Assembly (NCBI GenBank): GCA_029251525.1
Contig: JAQXDE010000018.1
Coordinates: 1-54,056 of the forward strand
Direction: 5' to 3'
Source of the DNA: Saprospiraceae bacterium
Lineage (GTDB): Bacteria > Bacteroidota > Bacteroidia > Chitinophagales > Saprospiraceae
DNA length: 54,056 nt
The position numbers were made by a program, and so were the translations under genes. Of this stretch, positions 18,008 to 21,791 are shown piece after piece. Within the stretch, counting starts at the first letter, position 1, and the number at the start of each line of letters is the position of its first letter. The notes under the pieces were generated by a model. It saw only the letters and a list, made by a program, of their open reading frames with translations, made no database searches and had not been told where the DNA came from.

Positions 18008-18355
18008 ATGAAAAAGCAATGCCCCGAATGTAATGATCCAATTATTGGTCGAACAGACAAAAAGTTTTGTAGTGATGGTTGTCGAAACAGCTATAATAAC
18101 CGTGTTAATAAGGATCAGAAAAATCTCATTAGAAATATTAATAATCGTTTACGAAAAAACTGGCGTATCCTTGAATCTATTAATCCACACCAAAAAACAA
18201 AAACCACACGGGATAAACTCATTGCAGCTGGTTTTGACTTTAATTACTTTACAAGTATTTATACCACGAAGTCAGGTACGGTCTACTATTTTGTGTATGA
18301 TCAAGGCTATTTGCCTTTAGAAAATCAGTATTATGCGGTTGTGAAAAGAGAATAG
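18008..18355 (+). CDS. Small zinc-ribbon protein of unknown function
   Basis: This 115-residue protein begins with a treble-clef or zinc-ribbon motif: CPECNDPI, then KFCSDGC, giving two CxxC-type pairs about 14 residues apart. A lysine/arginine-rich helical segment follows (NLIRNINNRLRKNWRILESI), and then a C-terminal part rich in Tyr and Phe (TTKSGTVYYFVYDQGYLPLENQYYAVV). It has no signal peptide and is likely cytoplasmic; a nucleic-acid-binding role would fit the basic helix but is not shown. I know of similar proteins in Flavobacteriia without an assigned role. Repeats 20 bases apart before its promoter suggest activator control. Confidence 0.75.
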   Translation: MKKQCPECNDPIIGRTDKKFCSDGCRNSYNNRVNKDQKNLIRNINNRLRKNWRILESINPHQKTKTTRDKLIAAGFDFNYFTSIYTTKSGTVYYFVYDQGYLPLENQYYAVVKRE

Positions 18356-18379: not shown

Positions 18380-18431
18380 CCGTTTACATAGTATAAACGA
18401 CCGCTTATTACGCAATATGTCCGTTAGTTAC
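18380..18431 (+). repeat. Iterated activator boxes, module A (three boxes)
   Basis: CCGTTTACAT (18380), CCGCTTATTAC (18401) and CCGTTAGTTAC (18421) are spaced 21 and 20 bases, so they fall on one face of the helix. The last box ends 7 bases before the TTG of the promoter at 18439. The third box fits the LytTR site consensus [TA][AC][CA]GTTN[AG][TG]; the others have one mismatch. The same three boxes recur exactly 210 bases downstream. Confidence 0.75.
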
Positions 18432-18438
18432 ACGTTGG

Positions 18439-18469
18439 TTGTAAGTGCTTTATAAGCTGCATATATTTG
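18439..18469 (+). promoter_or_regulatory. Promoter of small RNA candidate A
   Basis: TTG at 18439-18441, 20 bases, then TATATTTG at 18462-18469. This is an exact match to the Bacteroidota promoter, directly downstream of three phased boxes. Confidence 0.8.
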
Positions 18470-18475
18470 AACTAT

Positions 18476-18545
18476 GTAATTTAATATCTTACTTAAAAGT
18501 TAAATTGGTTAATTTTGGAAAACACCACGATAGTGGTGTTTTTTT
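18476..18545 (+). ncRNA. Candidate small RNA A
   Basis: A transcript of about 70 bases is predicted from the promoter at 18439-18469 to the intrinsic terminator at 18521-18545. It holds no ATG. Bases 18492-18516 (CTTAAAAGTTAAATTGGTTA and five more) are identical to a stretch in candidate B. The terminator stem AACACCAC/GTGGTGTT with loop GATA is followed by a T-run. I do not recognise a known RNA family; the start is inferred from the -7 element. Repetition of the whole module (boxes, promoter, core, terminator) while spacers diverge argues for selection. Confidence 0.65.
18521..18545 (+). terminator. Terminator of small RNA candidate A
   Basis: The 8-base stem AACACCAC/GTGGTGTT, loop GATA, is followed by T-residues to 18545. 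It has no protein-coding gene directly upstream. Confidence 0.85.
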
Positions 18546-18589
18546 ATGCTTAAAAATAAAAAACGCAACTTTTTTTTAAAAAGATATTA

Positions 18590-18641
18590 CCGTTTAAACA
18601 TTTAATATTTCCGCTTATTACATTATATGTCCGTTTATTAC
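18590..18641 (+). repeat. Iterated activator boxes, module B (three boxes)
   Basis: CCGTTTAAAC (18590), CCGCTTATTAC (18611) and CCGTTTATTAC (18631) repeat the spacing 21 and 20 of module A, and each is 210 bases from its counterpart. The third box fits the LytTR consensus. The promoter TTG follows 7 bases after the last box, as in module A. Confidence 0.75.
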
Positions 18642-18648
18642 TTAGTTG

Positions 18649-18679
18649 TTGTGGGTACAATAAATCTAATATATATTTG
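18649..18679 (+). promoter_or_regulatory. Promoter of small RNA candidate B
   Basis: TTG at 18649-18651, 20 bases, then TATATTTG at 18672-18679: an exact consensus match with the same geometry as module A, although the spacer sequence has diverged. Confidence 0.8.
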
Positions 18680-18685
18680 TAGTGT

Positions 18686-18759
18686 CAATATTCTCAAATA
18701 TTGCTTAAAAGTTAAATTGGTTAATTTTTGAAAAACACCACACTCGTGGTGTTTTTTTT
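18686..18759 (+). ncRNA. Candidate small RNA B
   Basis: A second transcript of about 74 bases is predicted, from the promoter at 18649-18679 to the terminator ending at 18759. It contains no ATG. Its 5' part differs from candidate A, while bases 18704-18728 are identical to 18492-18516. The terminator stem AAAACACCAC/GTGGTGTTTT has loop ACTC. The conserved part is single-stranded in appearance and lies directly before the terminator, the arrangement expected for a base-pairing small RNA. Function and targets are unknown. Confidence 0.65.
18732..18759 (+). terminator. Terminator of small RNA candidate B
   Basis: The 10-base stem AAAACACCAC/GTGGTGTTTT (18732-18741 and 18746-18755), loop ACTC, runs into a T-tract. 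Confidence 0.85.
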
Positions 18760-18828: not shown

Positions 18829-19530
18829 ATGAAAAAAATTAAATACACAGTTCTTTTATCACTTTGTTTTGGAATTCAAGTTCAAGCCCAGAGTCAGTCT
18901 GATTTAGTCTCTCATTACAAGGCCTATTACGCCCAAATGCAAAAACAAGGCGATATCCAAGGTATTATAAACGCAATGACACATTTAGTGCTGTTGGAGC
19001 CAAACGTGAAGCGACAGGATACGCTGTCAGCGCTTTATATGAACGAAGGAAAATATATGCAAGCGTTAAACATTGTTGGAATAGAACTGCTTGAAACAGA
19101 TACTACTTTAGCAACAGAAGTGAAAGCGGTGAGTTTAAAATCATTAAATGAACCAAAACGTGCCATTGAACACTATGAAGTGCTCTACAAACAAAACCCT
19201 TCAGTTTCTATTGCGTATGAACTTGCAGATTTAAAAATTCAAACAGATGATCTTACAGGAGCTTCATTAAATATAACCTACGGAATTGCAAATTCTACAA
19301 CAGATATGATGAAACCTTATTACGAAACGCAAACGCCATATCAAGTGCCATTACTTGCTGGTTTTGTATATTTAAAAGCGATTGCTAAATTCAGAGAGAA
19401 CACTGAAACAAATCATGATGCAGCGATTTTGATTTTAGAAGAAGCACTCCAGCTAGCGCCTAATTTTAATATGGCAAACTTAGCTATGAATGCCATTCGT
19501 AATCAAAAAGAAACTCCAAAAACGGATTAA
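18829..19530 (+). CDS. Exported tetratricopeptide repeat protein
   Basis: The 233-residue protein has a signal peptide (MKKIKYTVLLSLCFGIQVQAQ) and then helical TPR-like repeats, seen as LVLLEPNVKRQDTLSALYMNEGKYMQALNIV, PKRAIEHYEVLYKQNPSVSIAYELADL and ILEEALQLAPNFNMANLAM. It is probably a periplasmic scaffold protein; partners cannot be deduced. TACTTTTG at 18805-18812 fits a -7 element. A perfect palindrome lies 25 bases upstream of it. A strong bidirectional terminator follows, shared with the convergent M13 peptidase gene. Confidence 0.82.
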   Translation: MKKIKYTVLLSLCFGIQVQAQSQSDLVSHYKAYYAQMQKQGDIQGIINAMTHLVLLEPNVKRQDTLSALYMNEGKYMQALNIVGIELLETDTTLATEVKAVSLKSLNEPKRAIEHYEVLYKQNPSVSIAYELADLKIQTDDLTGASLNITYGIANSTTDMMKPYYETQTPYQVPLLAGFVYLKAIAKFRENTETNHDAAILILEEALQLAPNFNMANLAMNAIRNQKETPKTD

Positions 19531-21653: not shown

Positions 21654-21791
21654 GAGTTTAGTGTTTAGTGAGTATTATATATTAGTAGACGTACAATTAA
21701 CTAAAAATGTTACAGTTATACACAGAATTAACATTATTTATTTCAAATTTAACGCACTAGAAAGACACTAGCTCTTAAATTTTAAAGGAAA

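Follow-up and report, generated by a model that had tools for sequence, protein, structure and literature searches.

Predicted tandem small RNA genes with box-array promoters in Flavobacteriaceae: proposed loop complementarity to mRNA start regions points to an undescribed gene-control circuit

The window, i.e., the whole 54,056-nt stretch of DNA analysed here, contains two tandem copies of a predicted short RNA gene with a box-array promoter, and these belong to a family that recurs in Flavobacteriaceae. Judged by its sequence, this is an undescribed RNA family following the known principle of regulator-driven sibling sRNAs, and the complementarity of its loop to mRNA start regions points to an undescribed gene-control circuit. 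Taking all lines together, we consider it probable, with moderate confidence, that the copies are activator-driven, trans-acting sibling sRNAs which pair with mRNA start regions and take part in a regulon that remodels the surface. Our searches of the open PMC literature brought up no account of this RNA. An earlier sequence-only reading of the window had not recognised the RNA family either, in agreement with our search of Rfam (release 15), in which no family reaches its gathering score and sub-threshold matches are weak and far below the cut-offs.

The locus and its relatives

The coordinates proposed in the sequence-only reading were re-read directly on the forward-strand sequence of the window (Table 1). 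That reading had described two modules, each with boxes spaced 21 and then 20 nt apart, a TTG 7 nt past the last box, a 20-nt spacer followed by TATATTTG, a 25-nt core that does not differ between the two, and a terminator, and all of these were found in place in both modules. Three boxes per module had been claimed; the last two hold, but the distal boxes CCGTTTACATA and CCGTTTAAACA are just partly box-like. The transcripts had also been described as free of ATG, which is incorrect for the first predicted transcript, where an ATG is immediately followed by TAA. In the whole assembly to which the window belongs, a relaxed box-pair pattern matches at the two modules only (reversed-pattern control: 0), and so does the core at up to 3 mismatches. 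Near position 21789 of the window, a third core-like match, without boxes or promoter, was dropped. Reading frames of 29–44 aa cross the modules; those of 34 and 44 aa traverse the cores, share LKVKLVNF and both begin upstream of the predicted RNA start.

Table 1. Features of the two modules and their neighbours in the window.
Feature	Position	Strand	Remark
Module 1 activator boxes	18380-18390 (partial), 18401-18411, 18421-18431	+	last two are the pair conserved among relatives
Module 1 promoter	TTG 18439-18441, 20-nt spacer, TATATTTG 18462-18469	+	direct reading
Module 1 predicted small RNA	18474..18545	+	start approximate, inferred from promoter
Module 1 constant core	18492..18516	+	hairpin 18496-18516, loop AUUGG 18504-18508
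Module 1 proposed seed AAAUUGGUUA	18502-18511	+	antisense words over-represented upstream of ORFs (one relative)
Module 1 intrinsic terminator (hairpin + T-run)	18520..18545	+	direct reading, folding, alignment
Module 2 activator boxes	18590-18600 (partial), 18611-18621, 18631-18641	+	direct reading
Module 2 promoter	TTG 18649-18651, 20-nt spacer, TATATTTG 18672-18679	+	direct reading
Module 2 predicted small RNA, own 5′ hairpin	18684..18759	+	start inferred
Module 2 constant core	18704..18728	+	hairpin 18708-18728; proposed seed 18714-18723
Module 2 intrinsic terminator (hairpin + T-run)	18732..18759	+	direct reading, folding
Upstream neighbour, 115-aa protein	18008..18355	+	no Pfam match; neighbours sRNA locus in relatives too
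Downstream neighbour, 233-aa TPR-type protein	18829..19530	+	signal-peptide-like start; conserved neighbour of sRNA locus

Scanned for exact occurrences of GTTAAATTGGTTAATT with a T-run behind it, the genome collection yielded 44 stretches. We judged 25 of these, from 20 assemblies, to be true homologues; the unit of boxes, promoter, core and terminator recurs in them, and they hold 35 copies besides the window's two (a copy in L078 with an interrupted T-run was left out of the count). The remaining 19 stretches, which have no boxes and lie in other phyla or apparent coding DNA, were judged by eye to be chance matches. Nearly all further copies are labelled Flavobacteriaceae, Formosa or Bacteroidetes, and one locus is mislabelled Rhodobacteraceae. 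Copies stand 1–3 in tandem per locus, mostly between the same genes, with orthologues of the LacI-type regulator, SSB, 115-aa, TPR and M13 genes as flanks in most loci; several genomes have another locus at a different place, where other genes follow (L064, L074, L086, L093, L094). At sequence level, the family has the make-up expected of sibling sRNAs, with homologous, free-standing RNA genes occurring two or more to a genome and each equipped with its own promoter and terminator. We found no dispersed copies, as of a mobile element, and no frame starting on the transcript, as of a protein-coding gene.

Since the first scan demanded a 16-mer exactly, the constancy of the core is partly built in. 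A search for the core with up to 2 mismatches in 397 genomes of the bacterial family gave nine exact matches in four genomes (three in G927 and two in G1111, both g427; two each in G851 and G1064, g351), and inexact matches did not exceed the control (89 versus about 120 in the 397 genomes, counted by eye). Seven one-mismatch matches were read, none of them with boxes or a terminator by eye, and no variant copy appeared among them. With strict filters, an RNA model matched five of 296 genomes of the phylum, one being the assembly of the window; the other four (including L097) show neither core nor boxes by eye and were rejected. Among viral contigs, three stretches matched, none with boxes or promoter.

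The typical promoter consists of two boxes 20 bp apart, 7 nt to TTG and 20 nt to TAnnTTT. Enough upstream sequence is available for 36 of the 37 copies (L072, cut by a contig end, was left out), and the box period of 20, the gap of 7 and the promoter spacer of 20 are kept in 32 of these 36, including the window's own two. Departures from this geometry are seen in L052, L063 and L086 and in one of the copies of L077.

Concerning the organism behind the window, its contig (G000:C22) is probably a flavobacterial contaminant inside another organism's assembly, because this assembly contains a second full-length MetRS on C50, just 57% identical to that of the window, and the latter shares 94% identity with the MetRS of locus L095. 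The MetRS of other genomes reach at most 63% identity over the full length and at most 68% in partial matches, among the matches listed in the 149-genome order search. A contaminant contig would also explain why, when the genus and family to which the window's assembly is assigned were searched, chance matches alone or no relatives of the locus came up; the 115-aa neighbour did have relatives, with no core or strong boxes beside them. L095 (CALSPC010000003.1) is itself labelled Rhodobacteraceae and carries a flavobacterial contig. In G1205, sRNA loci with neighbourhoods of both genera lie on different contigs (G1205:C30 and G1205:C43, i.e., L078 and L232), which suggests a mixed bin.

The copies can be folded as a variable 5′ hairpin, the constant hairpin with its loop AUUGG, and the terminator. 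As the minimum-energy fold of many first-copy RNAs pairs the 5′ part with the core instead, two RNA conformers are possible according to the folding model. In an alignment of 35 of the 37 copies (A1; L063, without boxes, and the truncated L072 were left out), the terminator helix shows changes on both sides in 5 of 10 pairs, with pairing in 96.9% of its cells. The core helix hardly varies and, hence, carries no covariation information, and the 5′ helix is badly aligned (59% paired). In A1, both the number of cells changed on both sides (36 versus 15.1 shuffled) and the covariation score (0.159 versus 0.100) beat all 500 shuffles, but the shuffles were not clearly beaten by the number of pairs changed on both sides (8 versus 6.2) or of pair types (19 versus 19.4). 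The 5′ segments folded alone have z < −1 in 17 of 25 distinct cases, with a mean of −3.2, some z values being inflated by small variance. The proposal of the sequence-only reading that these are sibling small RNAs under selection thus gains support from conserved position, tandem copies, rigid promoter geometry, terminator covariation and 5′ sequences that are dissimilar yet predicted to fold.

Words antisense to the loop upstream of start codons

The motif AACCARTTTAA occurs at most 22 nt from an ATG 204 times in the 21 sRNA genomes, compared to 53 times for the reversed pattern, and exceeds this control in 21 of 21 genomes. In 40 relatives without the RNA, which were hand-chosen and are mostly small, the count is 144 versus 138, above the control in 18 genomes, equal in 4 and below in 18. 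These counts are of matches, so that one motif with two ATGs counts twice, and the excess is small in some sRNA genomes (G1111, 3 versus 2; G1192, 4 versus 3; G1193, 6 versus 5). Because the genomes are related, the Fisher value of 3e-12 is not a true probability.

Words were ranked in an unbiased 400-kb sample of G927 with 307 start regions, a start being defined as the first ATG of an ORF of at least 100 aa. The word ACCAATTT, antisense to the loop, is 3rd of 65,536 8-mers (10 seen, 1.1 expected), and AACCAATT, TAACCAAT and CCAATTTA rank 6th, 7th and seventeenth. Several other top-ranked 8-mers are words of the TAnnTTTG promoter element. Of 24 G927 stretches read at such matches, 18 contain an ORF (at least 40 aa) whose start is no more than 60 nt away; plausible starts were recognised in 17 of the 24, seven being judged not plausible, and the antisense word begins 12–27 nt before the ATG in the plausible targets. 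Sixteen stretches outside G927 were selected because their spacer strings recur, which makes that recurrence in part a product of the selection. By eye, many candidate products resemble lipoproteins or signal-peptide proteins, and one candidate target encodes a sigma-70 factor that comprises regions 1.2 to 4. Among the matches listed, an ATT that would extend the pairing precedes the word in 6 of 25 (P 3e-4), and a pairing C after the word is not clearly enriched (32 of 99 versus 8 of 40, P 0.10). For predicted duplexes between the core and 387 start regions, the mean energy is no different from that of the reversed core (−7.02 versus −7.03), and duplexes at −12 or below number 16 for the core and 8 for the reversed core. 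In the 54-kb window itself, no antisense word precedes an ORF.

The box regulon and candidate activators

The box pair, at up to one mismatch, is present in 18 of the 21 sRNA genomes (absent in G1191, G1196 and G1198) and in 0 of 3 others, with five control matches over all 24. The genomes in this count, as in the antisense count, are related; G927 and G1199, for example, are 99.9% identical over 1,500 nt. The follow-up of box arrays covers part of the sites found at up to one mismatch. Beyond the sRNAs, arrays lie upstream of OmpA-family proteins, T9SS-sorting-tail proteins, adhesin-like genes, an S74-chaperone-domain protein, and proteins that lack a Pfam match but begin like signal peptides. 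Behind other arrays, a hairpin with a T-run or a T-rich end takes the place of a nearby downstream ORF. In four genomes, an apparent non-coding transcript with a hairpin end lies behind an array, opposite a 142-aa gene, and a similar array transcript is found at related neighbours in three more (together L175, L177, L191, L153; L179, L183, L187). L173:2516-3330 represents a putative short transcript with terminator behind arrays, twice in G927 and without the sRNA core, and G1193 has one further such ORF-less array. An Rfam search of 11 regulon and sRNA loci gave no match.

A LytTR-type activator had been proposed for the boxes in the sequence-only reading. According to PMC4847170, LytTR sites consist of two repeats of 9–11 nt with spacers of 11–13 nt and have no common consensus. 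The spacer here is 9–10 nt if the half-site is taken as 11 nt, and 11–12 nt if it is taken as 9 nt. The proposal is plausible insofar as the period would fit this anatomy (PMC4847170) and one LytTR type is encoded beside or near arrays, but this gene is missing or cut down in genomes which have boxes.

Searching with PF04397, LytTR proteins were found in all nine genomes searched (7 with the RNA, 2 without). A 253-aa LytTR response regulator is encoded directly beside sRNA arrays in G1064 and G1193, and about 2–8 kb from arrays in G927 and G1200. Next to it, a LytS-type kinase is encoded divergently (of 604 aa in both G927 and G1064 and of 611 aa in G1200; the open frame in G1193 has just 399 aa), and then come a 934-aa Y_Y_Y protein with a LuxR-like end (LuxR match just under the cut-off) and SusC/SusD genes. 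An array-linked LytTR regulator by a Y_Y_Y/LuxR-like regulator is seen in L222 (G927:C1:1092000-1108000), L223 (G1111:C5) and L224 (G1199:C6), with SusC and SusD genes beside it in L223 and L224. The segment with the 253-aa regulator is missing at the syntenic place in G851 and G1197, and the regulator is cut to 103 aa in G1199; in G851 and G1195, the PF04397 search found no second LytTR protein. All four genomes retain boxes. In L226, a segment with LytTR regulator, kinase and OmpA gene lies between two arrays; it is absent from L225 and L231, where one array is left at the site, and recombination between the arrays is a possible cause of the loss.

An orphan LytTR regulator of 235–238 aa is present in 7 of 7 sRNA genomes searched (L195-L200, L203), its gene lying, in our own reading, between priA- and rpsF-like genes. 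All seven have Glu in the receiver where the 253-aa type has the Asp of the LIFLD motif, which we take to be the phosphorylation site. By eye, the DNA-binding domain of the orphan is better conserved than its receiver, and no box was found upstream of its gene in four genomes read. Either LytTR protein could bind the boxes, with the orphan slightly favoured.

The proposed circuit, its alternatives and its significance

The RNA gene family, the geometry of its promoters, the box regulon and the surplus of antisense words can be read from the sequences; transcription, the binding protein, pairing in the cell and the sign of the effect are what we infer from these patterns. An activator, most likely a LytTR-type response regulator, would bind the tandem boxes, whose period is about two helical turns, and help RNA polymerase at the TTG-N20-TAnnTTTG promoter, giving an RNA of about 70–76 nt which would end at its own terminator. 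Its constant hairpin would expose the AUUGG loop, and AAAUUGGUUA would pair with UAACCAAUUU just upstream of start codons. Perhaps a few percent of mRNAs would be targets, many of them encoding secreted proteins, lipoproteins and surface proteins, and pairing would most likely lower their translation. The same boxes would drive surface-protein genes and other apparent non-coding transcripts; since boxes are common to surface genes and sRNAs, the RNA would act as the post-transcriptional branch of a regulon that remodels the surface. A more specific version, which we offer tentatively and would not yet bet on, is a circuit of marine Flavobacteriaceae in which one LytTR regulator, possibly the orphan with its Glu receiver, which may ignore phosphorylation, activates surface proteins and several different sRNAs, and the loop seed of the sibling RNA silences the start regions of dozens of secreted proteins and lipoproteins and of a primary-type sigma factor.

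It is conceivable that the RNAs are real and box-driven but that their constant hairpin serves as a decoy or a site for protein binding, in which case the word found ahead of start codons would be an unrelated element of these genera. This would suit the invariance of the core hairpin, stem included, in the copies read (given that the scan demanded the 16-mer), as well as a mean duplex energy no different from that of the reversed core. We nevertheless consider it unlikely, as the words in excess cluster around the precise complement of the loop, lie just before the ATG and exceed the control solely in genomes with the RNA. There is a somewhat larger chance, though still a minor one, that the boxes are bound by a regulator outside the LytTR family. 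The direct repeats with a period of 20–21 suit LytTR proteins (PMC4847170), LytTR genes are linked to arrays in several genomes, and the orphan occurs throughout the sRNA genomes searched; on the other hand, the array-linked gene is missing or truncated in genomes retaining the boxes, LytTR domains also occur in both searched genomes without the RNA, and an 11-nt box is at the long end of LytTR half-sites, with a spacer of 9 being short unless the half-site is 9 nt.

As the TPR gene comes next in most loci, the modules could be its leaders or attenuators, but every copy has its own promoter and terminator and the second loci lie before other genes, which makes this reading very improbable. A recent tandem duplication, a mobile repeat or a small protein gene, in each case without RNA function, can hardly be reconciled with the data: two similar copies are adjacent and the 34- and 44-aa frames have LKVKLVNF in common, yet first and second copies have separate counterparts at the same intergenic position in relatives, further copies are lacking in the window's own assembly, the frames start upstream of the predicted RNA, and terminator covariation is ill-suited to coding.

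To our knowledge, regulatory RNAs are little mapped in Flavobacteriaceae. These bacteria are major degraders of algal polysaccharides and largely lack Shine-Dalgarno signals. Elsewhere, AgrA-RNAIII and VirR-VR-RNA are cases in which a LytTR response regulator drives a regulatory RNA via direct repeats, but they belong to Firmicutes and involve single long RNAs rather than short siblings. Yfr1 of cyanobacteria resembles the present RNA in being very short, with a highly conserved core and envelope-related targets; its sequence is unrelated, and we know of no box-array promoter for it. OmrA/OmrB of enterobacteria are tandem siblings as well, of comparable size (88 and 82 nt); a response regulator activates them, and they repress outer-membrane genes and their own regulator (PMC4211561). 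They differ in depending on OmpR rather than a putative LytTR protein, in having conserved ends instead of a conserved central hairpin, and in sequence and phylum. The CiaR-dependent csRNAs of streptococci likewise comprise several siblings per genome, some in tandem, under one response regulator (PMC4211561), but regulator family and RNA are different, what the siblings share here being a hairpin whose loop is AUUGG. Among flavobacterial sRNAs in the literature searched, the nearest is Rfp18 of Flavobacterium psychrophilum, a conserved Flavobacteriaceae sRNA affecting genes of secreted proteins (metalloproteases) (PMC9723704). It is described as strongly structured, pairing via a third stem-loop and widely conserved in Flavobacterium (PMC9723704), and by this description it would differ from the present RNA.

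What emerges is a compact, testable system: it offers an RNA family together with its promoter code, two regulator candidates and a list of predicted targets, and G927, a relative in a single contig, is at hand. It bears on the role of LytTR regulators in Bacteroidota and on how antisense RNAs may control start regions which have no Shine-Dalgarno signals.
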